A stretch of DNA of 14,082 nucleotides from Phanerochaete sordida (taxonomy: Eukaryota; Basidiomycota; Agaricomycetes; Polyporales; Phanerochaetaceae), in the NCBI GenBank assembly GCA_019973155.2, contig BPQB01000201.1:1-14082 (forward strand), in the 5' to 3' direction. Made by a program: the position numbers and the translations under genes. Under the pieces are notes generated by a model that was given only the letters and a program-made list of their open reading frames with translations, was not told where the DNA came from and did no database searches. Of this stretch, positions 3,205-14,082 are shown piece by piece (the first letter of the stretch is position 1; every line of letters begins with the position of its first letter).

Positions 3205-3357
3205 TAGTGCAGTGGCGGCATGTCGGGCAGGATTCTGAGCAGCTGCGCGGGCTCGCTGAGGTCCGCGCAGTGCTCGGGCATAGTCTACGAGGTGGCGGGT
3301 GCGGTGAGAGAGCTGCTGCGGGGGGCAGAGTCAGCCTGTCAGGTAGGAGCCAAGCTT

Positions 3358-3424
3358 CGCTCGGGCTCGGAAAATACCAGACGCCCCCGTTTCGAGGGCC
3401 TCTGGTGTCTTCCGAGCCTCGGCG
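3358..3424. repeat. Long imperfect inverted repeat, microRNA-precursor-like hairpin
   Basis: The 22-nt arms 3365-3386 (beginning GCTCGGAAAATACCAGA) and 3396-3417 (ending TCTTCCGAGC) match at 19 of 22 positions, around a 9-nt loop CCGTTTCGA. Weaker pairing with wobbles and mismatches extends the arms outward to 3358 and 3424. Arm length, mismatches and small loop resemble a Dicer-type precursor. A long palindromic protein-binding site or a small mobile-element remnant is also possible. Confidence 0.85.
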
Positions 3425-3872
3425 CATCATGCGCTGGCATGGCGAGATATTTTTTTGCCCGACGGCGTGAGATCCCGTGGAGTCAAGGGCCCTCGTCTGA
3501 TCGGGTCCCGGGCACAATCCCACGCTCACACAGGTGGATCTCTCAGTGTCCGAGCTCCCAAGTGCCTCAGAAAAATCATCTCAGAGTGCGGAAACTTAAG
3601 GCGTGCATTCTCTCAGAGTTGGTGTGTCCCGCAGGTCAGTGCCGTAGCACAGTAAAAAATCTCTTGGCTGCACACTCTGCAATCCCGCAGTAAGGCAGTG
3701 TGACAGCTGCCTGCATCAGAATTGATCGGGCTCGCCCCACCCGGTACTAGTGCATCGGAAATGACAACCGCAGACTGTTGTCAGCCTGCAGGTGTCACTT
3801 CCGACGCACCGTCCATGCCTCAAATCTGTATTTACATGGTCTACTAAGTCTAGACCTTCCAAGCCTGGCAGT

Positions 3873-3942: not shown

Positions 3943-4397
3943 AAATTTTATGAAACGTACAGGAGACCTGCAGTGGTCGCAGAGGGCGCACAACGCTCTG
4001 CTCGAGTCCTGAGAGAAAGCAGAAGACACTACCGGGATCACCTATTCCAGCCCATCCAGCTCCCTCGTCTGCACCATAGCCACGATCTGCGACACCGTCC
4101 CATCGCACTGGCGGATGTCTGCCCTCGCGCGACCCGGACGAGGAGACGAGGAGACGAGGGCGAGACGAAAGCGCGATAAGGAGAAATCGCGGCGATAAGC
4201 CAGGATCAGGCGCCAGATCTGCGCCACAAAGCCTTTGCCCGCGCTTGTGAGCCACGCGAGGCGCGGCGTTCCCGCCAACTCTCGCTCCGCCCATCCACCT
4301 CCCGCGGACACTCTGCCGCATTCTCGTCCTCTTGCACACACGAACGCGCTCTGCCACTGGTCAGAGGATTAAATATGCGGTGCGTGCGTGAACTGCG

Positions 4398-4448
4398 CTC
4401 GAATCACGCTTGGCCCGCGGGCATTCCGCGGGACGAGCGTGCTTCGAG
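4398..4448. repeat. 51-nt near-perfect hairpin upstream of the long transcript
   Basis: Outer stem CTCGAATCACGCT (4398-4410) pairs with AGCGTGCTTCGAG (4436-4448) at 12 of 13 positions. A symmetric 3x3 internal loop follows, then a perfect 7-bp inner stem CCCGCGG (4414-4420) with CCGCGGG (4426-4432) and a GCATT loop. It lies about 600 bp before the inferred start at 5060. It may be a symmetric protein-binding site or a hairpin RNA. Confidence 0.9.
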
Positions 4449-4907
4449 GCGGGTCGGGAATATCTCACAGAGTCGGACACACAGCGTCGTCGAGAAGCCC
4501 CGTTGCATCAGGCAGGGTGTGATGGGCGTTAGGGTGGAGCACGGGAGCGGAGAGAGCTGACAGGAGAAACGTACTCGCCGGAAACGCGTCGCACGCCAAG
4601 CGGGCAGGAACGCGACGTCGCAGCGCGGTCAGGAAGCTTCGAGGGGTGGGAGGCTGGCTGGGATGGCTTGAGGTGCGTACCCTGAGACTGCCTGATGCAC
4701 CCCTAAATGACCCAAATTTCTCCCTTTTGCACAATGCGTGCAAAGACAGAGATTCACGCGTCCTGCCCACCTGCTCCTCGACCCTCCCTTCGCCGAAACA
4801 CCGCGGGACCAAGACACCGAGATGAGCTCGGCTAGCCGCCCATCAAGAGCGACCATCACGGCCGCAATTTGGGGTGACGCTGCGCTCGAACGGCGGCACG
4901 TACGGCA

Positions 4908-4942
4908 CGCGGGCTGCACTCGTTTCGTGCTGGCAGCCCGCG
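4908..4942. repeat. 10-bp inverted repeat just upstream of the promoter
   Basis: CGCGGGCTGC (4908-4917) and GCAGCCCGCG (4933-4942) are perfectly complementary with a 15-nt spacer, about 85 bp before the TATA box. Outside it GCTCG (about 4883) could pair with CGAGC (about 4945). The position suggests a regulatory site. Like the 4398 hairpin, it is preceded by TGCGCTCGAA-type sequence. Confidence 0.75.
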
Positions 4943-5027
4943 GGCGAGCCGACGAATCTCGGAGAGCGAAGGGCCCCGGATGCAAAGTGGGGTGACGTGG
5001 GCTGGCCCGTGCGCACGTCCGGTGGGG

Positions 5028-5036
5028 GATAAAAGG
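5028..5036 (+). promoter_or_regulatory. TATA box of the long plus-strand transcript
   Basis: GATAAAAGG follows a GC-rich stretch containing TGACGTG (about 4993-4999, CRE/bZIP-like). About 30 bp further on comes a long pyrimidine-rich tract (roughly 5042-5160) with CTCAGCAGCACTCAGCC, a typical fungal start region. The first donor, GTAAGT, follows at 5269. The start site is inferred as about 5060. Confidence 0.65.
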
Positions 5037-5612
5037 TGCGCTCCTCTGGCTGTCCTCCTCAGCAGCACTCAGCCTGCATTCCCTCCTCCTCCCACTCCCA
5101 GCCTCCTCTCCCACTCCTTCACCTCTCTCGCCGTCTCTCTCACATCCTTCGCACACGACGCCTTTGTCCCTACTTCTGCACGTCGTCCCGCCTCTCTTGC
5201 ACGTCGTCGCGGCCCTCTAATACGTGACGCGACTCGCTCGGCGCAGCCAGCAGCCAGCGTCGTGGCAGGTAAGTGCGTGCTGGCTTCGTTCATTTATCTG
5301 ACTGACGATCTGATAGGCTCAAGAATTACATTCGAACGCAACGCCTGACAGCTTGTATTACATGGTGAGCATGGCTCGACCTCTCGCGCTTTGTACACAC
5401 GGTTCACGCGTTCAAATTCTAGCTTACCGGCACTTCAATATTTAATGAAAGCATGAAACGCTGAGGTCTGGGTAAGTTCACTCCTGTTTACGCTCTACGA
5501 TAACTGAATGCTCGTATAGCCATCTCGTTCTCGTGCGGCGTGGTCGTCGCTGGTGAGCAGCTCACAAACTGTCTAAGGGCTTTACTCGATTACTAACACT
5601 GTCTAGGAGGTC

Positions 5613-5627
5613 TTATCGATTCGATAA
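5613..5627 (+). repeat. 15-bp palindrome in an early exon
   Basis: TTATCGA, a central T, then TCGATAA. It lies in the predicted exon 5607-5645 right after the TACTAAC-containing intron. Confidence 0.8.
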
Positions 5628-6918
5628 TGCTTCGCGGCTAGCTCTGTAAGTAATTGCTTACTCTCACTCGGCCTTCACTTGACTGACACACCTAGACCAT
5701 ACCCTGCGCTATAAGAGCGGCTCTGTCGGCGTGCCGGCCGCAGATAGCTCGTGCGCACGTTCTCGTCGCACGTCGATGCGATGATCTGGAATTCTGGTGA
5801 AACGAAACGCCGTGCAGCTTGTCCGTACCGAGCCCGATGACCGTGACAAGCCTTACTAACATTCGTGCTCATCTAGAGCGCGCGCATTGCTTTCGGGACA
5901 TGGCAGGGAGCTGTTCGCCGGCGCGCCGCCCTGCTCGGCCCACGAAGACCGGGGGTATGGCGGCGCGATGATCGCTACGCCTGGTCCATCGAAATGTAAG
6001 TAGCCATTCGGTTACTGCCTTATTCCTCTCGCTCACTCAATTACTTCCACAGGCACCCACGATCTAATGCACAGGCGAGCTCTCGCGAAGACCGTGCCTC
6101 TGGGCTGTTTGCGACGGCCCAGAGACGCACGGCGTTCACGCTTTGCACGCACGTCACAGAGGTGCGGCGCCCGTGTTCGTTTCGACCCCGGGCTGACGTT
6201 ATCGCCAGCCTGGCAGCGCGTCGGCTCGATCCCCTTGGATCTGGCCATCGCCATATCGCACGGCCCAGAGCCCGATGTCGCGCCAGAACCGGACAGCGTT
6301 GACAGCCGATCGCGCGACCAGCATGCCAGCATCTGACCAGGTACGCCCGTCGCTTCTGCTTCAGGCCCGCTCTGACTGACCAGCTCATAGATCGTATCAT
6401 GCTGGATCCCGCGACGATCCTCTGCGGTAGCCGCCGCAGCCTTGACCCTGGAACCAGGCTTCTCGACCGCCTATCGACCGGCACAGCACATCGAGCCTTC
6501 GGGGTAAGTGTGCCATTTAATCACAGCTCACTATCAGGCTAATCGGACGTGCCAGGACAACCTCACGCGCCCGAATCGTACGCGGAACGTCTGACGTCCC
6601 GATCGTCTCGCAGCAGCTGGTCACCGTGACGTACGCGAACGCCAAGGTACCGGCCTGTCGAGCCGTAGCCTCGGCCCTTATCCCACGAAATGGGCCTCAC
6701 GCGGTAAGCCTCGAAGCCATTACCTGTGTGCGACCGTCTATTAATCCTGGCTCCTCGTAGATGGACCCTCCGCTGCCGCGAACTCGCTCTCGGCCGCTAC
6801 CGACGCGTGACCTCGACGAAGGGCCGTCAGACGTCCCCAGCTTGGGCTTACACAGGTACGTCGAGGCCCACATTTTATCGTAGCGAGTTTACGAACGCAG
6901 GCTGATCTCACTTATAGC

Positions 6919-6987
6919 TGCAGTATCGGTTGCTTTTGGCAACCTTACACTGCACTTAATCCTTCAGGATTGCCGCATGTCCAACCT
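6919..6987 (+). ncRNA. Array 2 structured element, copy 1 (hairpin, ACTTAAT linker, second stem)
   Basis: Hairpin 6919-6954: lower stem TGCAGTAT with ACACTGCA (one A-C mismatch), upper stem GGTTGC with GCAACC, loop TTTTG. The conserved core is 6938-6960, its last seven bases (ACTTAAT) unpaired. A second stem follows at 6966-6987, AGG-TTG with CAA-CCT and a bulged A. That it acts as RNA is inference from comparison with the other five copies. Confidence 0.7.
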
Positions 6988-7222
6988 CTCGAAATGTACT
7001 CAACGACGTGAGTATTATCTTCATACATTTCACACAGCCTTCCGCTTACATCCTTGATAAAAGGACTGTATGACCCTCTCGATAACTCGATTAGTAGGAT
7101 ATCGCTATCAGAGCCCTATACGCTCCTGCGATTCCGCTTCATGTCCCCAGCGGCGCAGGTACGTCTGAAACCATGCCCGTTATTTGTTATGCTAACATAT
7201 GGCGACATAGGTTCATGAACCG

Positions 7223-7299
7223 TAGTGTACGGTGTCGAAAGACAACCTTACACTGCACTTAATCCTTCAAGGTCTCGGATTGCACCACTACATTCCGAG
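7223..7299 (+). ncRNA. Array 2 structured element, copy 2 (compensated variant)
   Basis: Hairpin 7223-7255: lower stem TAGTGTA with TACACTG (a T-G wobble at the base), upper stem TGTC with GACA closed by a GAAA tetraloop, then GG with CC across a bulged A. The core (7241-7263) is the only one with a substitution, GGCAAC to GACAAC, and the facing base has changed from C to T so pairing is kept. Second stem 7274-7299: CTCGG with CCGAG. Confidence 0.72.
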
Positions 7300-7508
7300 C
7301 ATTCTCGAACCATGTAAGTAAATGTATCTCTCCGCTCGTCGCGTAGCTATTGACATTGTAGTACCCCAGGCCTGTCGAGACGAGTTCCTACTCGTTCGTA
7401 GTCGGATCGCTGTTCCCGCCGTCTACCGCGGTGTCGACTTCGAAGGTACGTCTAGCTATCCTCCAAGGGTATACCATACTCACGAGTAGGCTTAGAAAGA
7501 TACAGACA

Positions 7509-7595
7509 TCATAGAACGGTGTAGAGGTTGCTTGCTGGCAACCTTACACTGCACTTAATTCTATGAAACCTCGGGTCGTACTTCTACGTCTCGAG
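7509..7595 (+). ncRNA. Array 2 structured element, copy 3 (with extended basal stem)
   Basis: Hairpin 7517-7551: CGGTGTA with TACACTG (one G-T wobble), then GGTTGC with GCAACC. Core 7537-7559. An extra perfect 8-bp basal stem, TCATAGAA (7509-7516) with TTCTATGA (7559-7566), leaves most of the conserved CACTTAAT as a one-sided bulge. Second stem 7570-7595: CTCG and CGTA with TACG and CGAG, a 3x3 internal loop and a CTTC tetraloop. Confidence 0.72.
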
Positions 7596-7823
7596 TGCTT
7601 ACCACACCTTGTAAGTCCTTGGATTCCTTCGTTCACGCCATGACTAATGATCTCTCGACATCCTAGGGCTGGTGAAGCGAGGCTCGAGCCCACGCTTGTC
7701 CGTACTCGACCCGCTGGTCGTCTCGACCGCCTCGTAGCATTTTCATATAAATGGTGCGATCGCTCATAACACAAGTGTATACCGTACTGACGAGTAGGTT
7801 TAGGGAGAGCAGGATGCCAAGGA

Positions 7824-7903
7824 GCAGTATATCCGTTGCCAAAAGGCAACCTTACACTGCACTTAATCTGCAAGACCTCGGACCGCAACACTACATACCG
7901 AGG
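7824..7903 (+). ncRNA. Array 2 structured element, copy 4
   Basis: Hairpin 7824-7860: GCAGT with ACTGC, one A-C mismatch, then TA with TA; upper stem GTTGCC with GGCAAC around an AAAA loop. Core 7845-7867. Second stem 7876-7903: a perfect 6-bp CCTCGG with CCGAGG. Confidence 0.72.
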
Positions 7904-8114
7904 CTACACGAACCACGTAAGTACATGTATTTCTCCGTCCGTTATGTATGTAATGACCTGCCGATACCCTAGGTTTATCGAGACGAATTCATGTTCGTCC
8001 GCGGTCAGATCGACGAGAGCTCCCGCCGCCTCCCTTGTATCTATATATCAGGTATGCTGGTCTATCATGCAGGTGTATAACACACTGACAAGTAAGTCTA
8101 GTGTCGTGGAAACG

Positions 8115-8198
8115 CTGTAGAGCAGTGTCTAGGTTGCCAACTGGCAACCTTACACTGCACTTAATCCTACAGGACCCTAGGCGGTTCATGGCTAGGTC
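8115..8198 (+). ncRNA. Array 2 structured element, copy 5 (most perfect hairpin)
   Basis: Hairpin 8122-8158: perfect 7-bp GCAGTGT with ACACTGC, a 3x2 internal loop, perfect 7-bp GGTTGCC with GGCAACC, loop AACT. Core 8143-8165. A basal 6-bp stem CTGTAG (8115-8120) with CTACAG (8167-8172) places the conserved ACTTAAT in a one-sided bulge, as in copy 3. Second stem 8173-8198: GACC-TAG with CTAGGTC, one bulged C. Confidence 0.75.
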
Positions 8199-8430
8199 TA
8201 CCATGTAAGTGTTACCCTTACTTTGTCATCGATCTGGTTACTAATCTGTCAACGTGATAGATCGTGGTGTGGCGTTGACGCGACGCCCACGCTCGATGGG
8301 CGCACGGCTGGATCCCTGCGGTCCCCGGCCAGTCTCACCGTTTCGTGCAAGGTCTCTTACGAAGGTAAGAGCTTTTGTATACCGTTAAGATACCTCACTG
8401 ACTCGCGAAGTATGTAGGAGCTGCATAGCA

Positions 8431-8510
8431 CAGTGTATGAGTTGCCGACTGGCAACCTTACACTGCACTTAATCCTTCGAGACCGTCGGAATTCGTCCAA
8501 GATGGCCGAC
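8431..8510 (+). ncRNA. Array 2 structured element, copy 6
   Basis: Hairpin 8431-8465: perfect 7-bp CAGTGTA with TACACTG, a 3x2 internal loop, GTTGCC with GGCAAC, loop GACT. Core 8451-8473. Second stem 8485-8510: GTCGG with CCGAC. Confidence 0.72.
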
Positions 8511-8700
8511 CGCCCTCAAACCTCTCGAAATGTACATTCATGTAAGTACATCTTCATATGTCATTATGATGCTCTACTTACATGAACACTAGGGTAATAA
8601 TTCGTCAGAATCGAGGGCTATAGGCTCTGCGACGCGCATCGCCGTCGGACATGCTAACGGCCGTGGAACGGACGTCTCGCATGTAATATACACGTTGTCT

Positions 8701-8742
8701 ACATTGTACAAAAGCTCGGGGACGAGCTTTCGCCCCAAATGT
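8701..8742 (+). other. Perfect stem-loop downstream of array 2
   Basis: AAAGCTCG (8711-8718) pairs perfectly with CGAGCTTT (8723-8730) around a GGGA loop, which fits the GNRA tetraloop class. An outer ACATT (8701-8705) can pair with AATGT (8738-8742). It lies in the long predicted exon that follows the last array unit, so it may be another structured element of the same RNA. Confidence 0.65.
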
Positions 8743-9216
8743 TCTGGTGGCGCGTCGTTCAGAGGGCTCAGTCGTGCGCGTCGTTCGCGATCGCCGACTT
8801 ATCACTTCGTTGTTCGCGTCACCTTCGCGGCGACAGTCTTACGCGGGAGGGCGTCGCGCGAGATGCTCAATGTAATATTTGCAGGACGCGCTACGCTGCA
8901 CAAGGACTCGGCCTCGCTTCGATACCTCGGCAGCTCGAGGCCCGGTCCTCCAGGCCAAGGTACGCCTCGCATTTGCTCTTGTATTTGGCGTATACTTATC
9001 GACGCTCTATTGACCGCAGGCGTTGCATGTCATCGGCCACGGTATGTCCCTCGTTATCGCACTACCATCGCACTTACTCACCAAGTCTTGTGTTCCTTGG
9101 TAGGTGTCCAGCAGCACACGCCGTGCAGGCTCTCGCACATTGGTCAAGGTATGTAACCCACATATTTATTCATCGGTATATCTAACGGGCTGTCGTACAA
9201 GCTCTCGTCTCACCAG

Positions 9217-12637: not shown

Positions 12638-14082
12638 TCATATACGACCGAACACGGGCGCGCCGTCGATGACCGTCGCGAGGACGCGGGTGGCGAGGAT
12701 GCGCTCGGGCGCGATAGCCATGATGTCCTGCGACAGCACCGTGTAGTCGGCGCGCTTGCCGGGCGCGATCGAGCCGAGGACGTCTTCCGTGAAGGACGCG
12801 TAGGCCGGGTCGAGCGTCATGCCTGTGCGCGCACGCATGTCAGCTCGACCTACGAACACGCGGGTGATCGCACTCGCCTTTCAGCGCCTCCGCGCGCGTC
12901 ATGCGCTGGTCCGGGAACCTACAGGGGGCGAGCGATCAGCCTGCGCTCGCACGCGCGGGGCAGCGCGGGGCGCACCAGCCGTCGGGCCCGTGGGGCGACG
13001 TGCCCTCCGCGGAGAGGCGCGTGATCGCGGCGTAGAAGCCTGCGAGCGGGTTCACGCCCTCGACGGGGAAGTCGGAGCCGAGCGTGATGCGCGCGCCGTG
13101 GTCGAGCACGCTGCGGAACGCGTACAGGCCCTTCACACGCTCGGGGCCCTGCCATTCAGTGCGGTGAGCAGGCAGCGGGAGGCGCGCGGCGAGGGGTACG
13201 TACGAGCCGCTCCTCGGCGTACCACATGTCGTCAGTGCTGCCCGAAGCTTGTCAGTGTGGGGCGGGCGGAAAACGGACGGCCGAACGCACGCGTGGGTCG
13301 GTTGCACGCTCGCGATAACTAAGGGCCGATATGAGTACGGTTTGCGCGGCTAGGCGCCACGCGACTTACCACCGAGGTCGCCGAAACGCGCCATGTCCTG
13401 CTGGGAGAGCAGCTGTGCATGTTCGAGACGCGGCCGGAGCGCTTTGACGTCCGCGTCCTTGAGCGCCGTCTCGAACGCGTCGAGGACGAGGCCGTTCGCG
13501 CGGTCGCCTATAGCATGTACGTTCTGGCGCGAGAAGCGTCAGCGCGCCTGACATGCGCCCGGGCGCGGCACGTACCACTTGCCAGCCGTCCTTGAGGAAG
13601 CGGGGGATGACGGTGTTGAGCACGTCGGCGTCGATGCGCATCACGCCACGTGTCGTCGGGTTGTCCGTGTACGGCTCGTAGAGCTGGGGGCATGGGTTTA
13701 GCAGCGCAAAGGCCGCAGATCGCGCGCAAGACGCACCGCCGCACCGCCAGACCGCAGTGCACCTGCAAAGAAGCGTCAGCGCACGCACGGGCGGACCGAG
13801 CGCCCGCGGCCGCGGCTTTGCCAGTGAACGCACCATCGGCGAAGATCTTGACACTGCGCGCAGTGAGGCGGCCGTTGCCCGCGCCGATCAGTTTCTCGCG
13901 GCGGTCGCCCCAGTAGTCGGCGGACTCGTTGAAGTGGGTCATGCCATACACGCGCATCTGCGCGAGATCGAGGTCAGATAGCAGTTCCGGGAGGCAGCGC
14001 GAGAAACGTGGGGGCGACGCACTGGGAGCTTGCCCTCGTCGGCAGCCCTGCGGAGGAGACGATCATGATCTGAACACCGATG
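12638..14082 (-). CDS. Amidohydrolase family 3 (YtcJ-like) metal-dependent hydrolase, 3' part, ten exons, 5' end outside window
   Basis: Exons on the minus strand in coding order: 14082-14023 (cut by the window edge), 13957-13834, 13762-13737, 13683-13576, 13523-13370, 13318-13291, 13237-13204, 13148-12976, 12918-12878, 12822-12638. They total 933 nt, in frame throughout: 310 residues plus TGA. Family landmarks, numbered within this partial protein: EGKLPMRVYGM (residues 16-26), SVKIFADGALRSGGAALYEPY (55-75, crossing two introns) with lysine 57, NVHAIGDRAN with histidine 109, RLEHAQ with histidine 141, ASVQPTH (160-166), TLGSDFPVE with aspartate 204, and a C-terminal GSIAPGKRADYTVLSQD. In the amidohydrolase superfamily the lysine, histidines and aspartate bind the metals and activate water; the N-terminal HxH pair must lie beyond the right edge. 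Substrate and cell location cannot be read from this part. It is convergent with the plus-strand transcripts to its left. No frameshift or internal stop is seen, so it appears intact here. Confidence 0.93.
12823..12877 (-). other. GC-AG intron in the amidohydrolase gene
   Basis: The last intron begins with GCGAGT after exon end CTGAAAG and ends with ACAG; a branch-like GCTGAC lies near its 3' end. Splicing it out joins the conserved LK-G-MTLDPAYASF in frame (phase 1). No GT donor nearby keeps the frame: the alternative GTGCGATC start leaves only about 24 nt before the next TAG. GC-AG is a known minor donor class and its exon context here (AAAG before GCGAGT) is the usual one. Confidence 0.85.

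Follow-up and report, generated by a model that had tools for sequence, protein, structure and literature searches.

Short copies of one PHO85-type cyclin gene in dispersed, intron-dense loci of Phanerochaete sordida: candidate trans-acting siRNA-type loci

About 18 unlinked loci in the genome of the basidiomycete Phanerochaete sordida, 15 of them convincing, carry short pieces of a single cyclin gene. Apparently non-coding and dense in introns, these loci are read here, on sequence evidence and with a probability of about 0.45, as trans-acting siRNA-type loci aimed at the cyclin. The stretch of DNA analysed (the window; 14,082 nucleotides) is contig C201 of the 40.8-Mb genome assembly and holds an array of six units, the core of which is a perfect copy of a stretch of cyclin coding sequence. 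The array is one of a set of dispersed loci holding different pieces of the same mRNA; both points were absent from an earlier note on this DNA. All recurrent short elements that have a convincing match trace to this one gene. Target, candidate guides and loci are all readable from sequence and, if the siRNA reading is true, intron-dependent RNAi would be linked to cyclin control in mushrooms.

The six units are spaced by 303, 296, 308, 298 and 308 bp, so that the tandem array with a period of about 303 bp described in the earlier note is real, with spacings of 296–308 bp. Their 21-nt core, CAACCTTACACTGCACTTAAT, is identical in 6/6 units and is referred to as element A; it lies on the + strand at 6940–6960, 7243–7263, 7539–7559, 7847–7867, 8145–8165 and 8453–8473 (units 1–6, respectively). 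Unit 1 is a sense copy of positions 7227–7247 of L033, the cyclin locus, in which all cyclin coordinates are given. Units 2 and 4 hold the exact 21-mer, and identity to the cyclin reaches 26 nt in unit 3 (from 7534) and 27 nt in units 5 and 6 (from 8141 and 8449). The longer 23-mer (GG plus the 21-mer) previously reported as identical in five copies is indeed so in 5/6, unit 2 reading GACAACC. The array also contains two + strand copies of element B, a sense copy of the cyclin 5′ leader, at 6981–6999 (one mismatch) and 8515–8535 (exact over 21 nt; L033 6922–6942). In an alignment of the six units the core columns are invariant (21/21), compared with 22/214 ungapped columns outside the core, where the mean pairwise identity is 46% and the next-longest invariant run is 3 nt. 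An invariant core within such diverged flanks is far beyond chance.

A protein-coding array is unlikely, as a single-base gap immediately follows the core in unit 4 and the core letters are read in a different frame in the cyclin; 4/5 unit spacings are also not multiples of three, a weak point as introns are included in the spacings. The proposal of a spliced-looking, apparently non-coding tandem design with selection on the core nucleotides is supported. Plain local gene conversion, which had been offered as the alternative, does not fit because the flanks of the units are not homogenised. The array does not resemble a tandem satellite, its units being only 46% identical outside the core and the array being unreported by Tandem Repeats Finder. 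Membership of the core in a dispersed transposon or satellite would, according to the earlier note, have refuted its reading. This is half the case: the core is indeed dispersed, yet long terminal inverted repeats did not turn up in a limited test, in which 9/12 loci lacked exact 14-mer inverted pairs separated by 1.5 kb or more and the other three had one or two chance-like pairs; the ends of the loci may lie beyond the stretches examined.

The feature is larger than the interval 6901–8541 first assigned to it, having a TATA-like box at 5028 and a common upstream block from about 3265. This block (3265–3814, +) is shared with the C28 locus at 69% identity, and sequence comparison places pieces of it (3346–3443 and 3747–3812, +) in C36a as well. 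The putative array gene has a conserved promoter region (4133–5104, +) that is 78% identical to C28 over 972 nt and 74–75% identical to C36 in two pieces; beyond these two, no genome match was found at E ≤ 0.01 among the best candidates. The TATA-like box GATAAAAGG (5028–5036, +) also stands at the equivalent place in C28 and C36a. Promoter and cores are kept while the rest drifts, since 4133–5104 retains 74–78% identity whereas for 5105–6918 no alignment to C28 was reported at an E value of 1e-5.

A putative intron-dense and apparently non-coding transcript, the ends of which we infer, would extend over 5060–8700 (+). A strict intron model, consisting of a 5′ splice site, a CTRAY branch point and YAG, predicts 11 introns on the sense strand of 5060–9100 and one on the opposite strand; 50 shuffles averaged 0.9 and never exceeded 2. 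The sense introns (+) are placed at 5269–5316, 5553–5606, 5646–5695, 5996–6074, 6341–6383, 6504–6555, 6856–6917, 7159–7210, 7611–7666, 8052–8101 and 8205–8260. The claim that each unit has two exons and two introns with all signals intact was overstated: just five of the 11 strict introns overlap 6901–8541, and although further introns are readable by eye, some signals are weak, such as the unit 4 donor GTGCGA. The strict count covered ten regions, leaving out C18, C19, C33, C70, C97, C134 and C208. Nine of the ten contain 7–18 sense and 0–1 antisense introns against shuffle means of 0.8–1.0 (at most 4), and the signals, on one strand only, are at least eightfold above shuffles; the remaining region, C14, has two sense and no antisense introns (0.2 in shuffles, at most 2).

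Genome-wide, the exact 21-mer occurs at 17 sites, 16 of which are in five array-type loci and one in the cyclin coding sequence (six on C201, five on C20, three on C28 and one each on C36, C18 and C25); the reversed control gave none. It is absent from viral and prokaryotic collections, as expected for a fungus. The cyclin, on contig C25, is 100% identical to PsYK624_083700 of P. sordida and comprises 656 amino acids, with a match to the PHO85-type cyclin family PF08613 at 21.4 bits (cut-off 21). Its relatives number 531 among 7,991 scored; the names listed are from Agaricomycetes and the source names include 'PHO85 cyclin-5' and 'G1/S-specific cyclin pas1'. The assignment of the start codon is backed by an N-terminus conserved among these relatives, and core A lies in the codons for WQPYTALNP; in P. 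carnosa this part of the protein is different. In the 5′ leader, a 48-codon upstream reading frame (MYSPRLN…; L033 6937–7083) starts inside element B. The gene downstream of the cyclin seems, by eye, to be oriented towards it.

Elements A, B, E and F are sense copies from the 5′ part of the cyclin mRNA, and C and D are antisense copies from its 3′ end. Element B (sense; L033 6922–6942) derives from the 5′ leader with the upstream AUG; its 19-mer has 19 exact sites in the genome, one being the cyclin, and 13, 5 and 7 sites with one, two and three mismatches, respectively, compared with four sites at up to three mismatches in the reversed control. Element C (antisense; L033 9170–9190), which was discovered by counting words common to loci without reference to the cyclin, has 18 sites at up to three mismatches, comprising 17 in arrays and one in the cyclin (control 0). 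Element D (antisense; L033 9189–9227) spans the stop codon and is found five times in C211 and once each in C139 and the cyclin (control 0); used as a query against the genome, the C211 array hit nothing beyond itself, the cyclin and C139. Element E (sense; L033 7247–7272) is present three times in C14, once with three mismatches, and once in the cyclin (control 0), and element F (sense; L033 6983–7006) once in C20. The exact cores measure 21–32 nt and are set in drifting flanks, and around some of them homology with mismatches reaches approximately 30–45 nt.

Compared sensitively against the 18 array loci, the cyclin gene yielded 80 matches at E < 0.05, and none once the loci were reversed; 75 fall on A–F and five weak ones were left uncounted. 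In the same comparison the middle of the cyclin mRNA (7320–9150) had no reliable match in the 18 array loci. The weak matches are those of a candidate element G, antisense to cyclin 7285–7320 with four matches in the two C97 loci (E 0.007–0.02), and a C208 match at cyclin 8175–8224 (E 0.007–0.02). A relative of A with three mismatches on C4 was treated as chance, as were relatives of B on C7, C39, C47, C49, C132 and C145, the reversed control for B being four. The genome was searched by single queries; other targets may exist, because such DNA searches can miss 27-nt matches, and the query with the window array did not list the cyclin.

At up to three mismatches, 82 elements (A 19, B 37, C 17, D 5, E 3 and F 1) are distributed over 18 unlinked loci on 16 contigs. 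Element A is found in C201, C20, C28, C36 (near 246 kb) and C18; C in C33, C36 (near 78 kb), C70, C121, C195, C217, C97 (two loci) and C134; D in C211; E in C14; C208 and C19 have B alone. Element B is present in 17/18 loci and in the cyclin. The doubtful loci are C18, with one element, C14, with two strict introns, and C19, in which no introns are seen by eye; the other 15/18 are convincing. In C19 (L035, about 4842–5150 of the reversed locus) two copies of B lie 53 nt apart beside a minisatellite (AGATGACGGTCAGAGAAG), with no visible introns. One promoter is common to eight C-type or B-type loci (C121, C195, C36, C217, C70, C33, C134 and C208). Copies within one locus, and loci with a common promoter, are not independent.

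The elements differ in their placement relative to the predicted introns. In the ten regions, A (18/18 copies) and B (22/22 copies) lie outside them. Strict introns contain D in 3/5 copies, E in 1/3 and F in 1/1, the remaining D and E copies being intronic by eye. Element C overlaps a predicted intron in 8/11 tested copies, all eight introns ending within C (CTAAT…GTAG), and the other three show no such overlap. Some C copies have an earlier AG, and use of the predicted 3′ splice site within C is not certain; if it is used, C is divided by splicing. In three D copies, CACTGAC is common to the element and the branch point. Because the pieces sit in exons, in introns and across a predicted 3′ splice site alike, their common active form is unlikely to be spliced RNA and should instead come from unspliced RNA.

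A predicted hairpin holds the 5′ part of A; in the example of unit 5 (8110–8205, +) it has a z score of −4.35, and 0/200 shuffles were as stable. Across 20 copies 72.7% of pair cells are paired, compared with 25.5–47.6% when the structure is slid. Two of 14 pairs are changed on both sides (reached by 30/500 shuffles), and the covariation score is 0.094 versus 0.082 (4/500); the covariation support is slight because the 3′ arm hardly varies. The stem that surrounds element C in C121 falls short of significance (z −0.87; 37/200 shuffles as stable), and one of its arms is largely cyclin homology. The array has no Rfam match, in line with the earlier note, which knew of no described fungal family of this design. 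The only Rfam match in the window, to MIR161, lies outside the array and reaches 27.8 bits against a threshold of 90; a known structured RNA family was rejected.

The stretch underlying that sub-threshold match is a hairpin of about 60 nt (window 3741–3822; L010 572–652; L011 7826–7904, −) that is kept in all three loci with this promoter; in the window it precedes the TATA-like box by approximately 1.2–1.3 kb. Its folding z scores are −4.7, −6.0 and −6.2, and its arms have no match in the cyclin locus at up to five mismatches. A miRNA-like precursor and a DNA palindrome are both conceivable. Within the shared upstream block, 3361–3440 of the window is a very stable hairpin-forming stretch (z −7.8 versus mononucleotide shuffles).

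Perfect identity to one gene at small-RNA length, a drifting background and the number of loci point to base pairing as the selected property. Under the siRNA reading the loci would be transcribed, and their intron-rich precursors would be copied by an RNA-dependent RNA polymerase (RdRP) and cut by Dicer; siRNAs from the cyclin-identical pieces would then be loaded into Argonaute, and the cyclin would be silenced or tuned by them in trans. Antisense pieces could pair with the mRNA directly and sense pieces would need the other strand, so that both would yield guides against the cyclin mRNA because the polymerase copy would supply it. Pieces on both strands, in introns, in exons and across a 3′ splice site suit siRNAs from unspliced RNA. 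Against this reading, the four sense elements need an antisense copy in order to pair with the mRNA, B is no more than a candidate for a shared trigger site, and the middle of the cyclin (7320–9150), which siRNA sources would have no reason to avoid, is without a reliable match. Matches to RNAi genes are present in the genome (RdRP at about ten places, Piwi at about nine and paired RNase III domains at three, by our grouping of hits), but such genes are common in fungi and their presence proves nothing specific. By the same grouping, Argonaute (Piwi) genes are clustered at C9:187–199 kb (three) and C127:2.7–9 kb (two). Taken further, at least 15 loci would form a dedicated trans-acting RNA circuit over this cell-cycle regulator, making small RNAs against the cyclin with guides from both mRNA ends and from unspliced precursors. 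We would give this conjecture roughly even odds; an equally bold alternative is that selfish loci are shielded from RNAi by pieces of a needed gene.

Decoys are another reading: array RNAs would sequester small RNAs or proteins that bind the cyclin mRNA and an antisense transcript of it, leaving the cyclin protected rather than silenced. The preponderance of sense elements (A, B, E and F), as in a mimic, the many copies per locus and the consistent placement of A and B outside predicted introns would suit this. A copy of the target site would, by prediction, remain in the mature RNA for A and B but largely not for C, D, E and F; D, E and F being intronic and C straddling a predicted 3′ splice site in 8/11 copies, mature RNA would lack or split them. 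Target mimics known from plant work carry a bulge, whereas the identity here is perfect, and we consider decoys unlikely. The predicted intron ends inside C and the CACTGAC shared by D and the branch point could alternatively reflect direct antisense or splice sensing, with cyclin RNA pairing with locus introns at branch points and 3′ splice sites so that the loci read the cyclin level. However, A and B lie in exons, and overlap with branch points may be trivial because short introns leave little room elsewhere; this explanation is very improbable.

Parasitic loci might instead carry small-RNA-sized pieces of a needed host gene; RNAi directed at such loci would strike the cyclin too and would therefore be selected against. 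If true, this would give selfish DNA a new means of resisting silencing. The dispersal of the loci, their lack of a visible coding role and the presence of pieces on both strands and in introns and exons agree with this, as does a 46-nt piece (two mismatches, cyclin antisense strand) that closely follows the stop codon of a C139 open frame (L051, C139:1500–3800, minus strand; about 1296–1341 of the reversed locus), where there are no array or intron signals. This frame, which we take to be transposase-like in appearance, has no Pfam match above the cut-off, and a protein search with it gave one relative, although full-length relatives are missed by protein pieces. Since the limited test found no terminal repeats either, shielding seems distinctly improbable. 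We judge much the same of a passive origin, in which captured cyclin pieces are kept identical by gene conversion or recent spread with no function aimed at the cyclin. Homology with mismatches extending to about 30–45 nt around some cores resembles decaying captures, and loci with a common promoter are related by duplication; however, unchanged 21-nt tracts in flanks of 46% identity, involving several pieces and many loci, are not readily explained in this way, and the middle of the gene contributes nothing.

Returning to the siRNA reading, the nearest likeness is to plant TAS loci such as TAS3, which have a miRNA trigger and phasing. As in those, a short, fixed stretch of a non-coding locus is identical or complementary to a gene targeted elsewhere in the genome while the rest drifts, and the output may be alike. 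The putative fungal system differs in having many loci, dozens of pieces for one gene, both strands and many introns. Suppressor of Stellate and hairpin-RNA loci of Drosophila are likewise repeated non-coding loci homologous to one host gene, but with long homology or long inverted repeats rather than isolated 21–45-nt pieces. In the basidiomycete Cryptococcus neoformans, spliceosome-held RNA is turned into siRNAs by spliceosome-coupled nuclear RNAi (SCANR), for which intron-containing transcripts are the suggested source (PMC7763443). The predicted intron signals of P. sordida make its putative transcripts intron-containing as well, and the biogenesis proposed from its DNA may be similar; the Cryptococcus targets are transposons in cis (PMC7763443), whereas the P. 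sordida pieces point in trans to a host cyclin. Endogenous target mimics such as IPS1 are also non-coding RNAs with a short copy of a target site (PMC9918958), but the P. sordida pieces are perfect, in many copies, on both strands and in some cases intronic.

In the open-licence literature the core letters do not occur, searches showed no trans-acting siRNA loci aimed at a host gene in any fungus, and no such system was found under fungal arrays and small RNAs, TAS3 and mimics, basidiomycete Pcl cyclins or host-gene fragments. Elsewhere in the window, positions 12650–12880 (−) are part of an amidohydrolase gene (PF07969).
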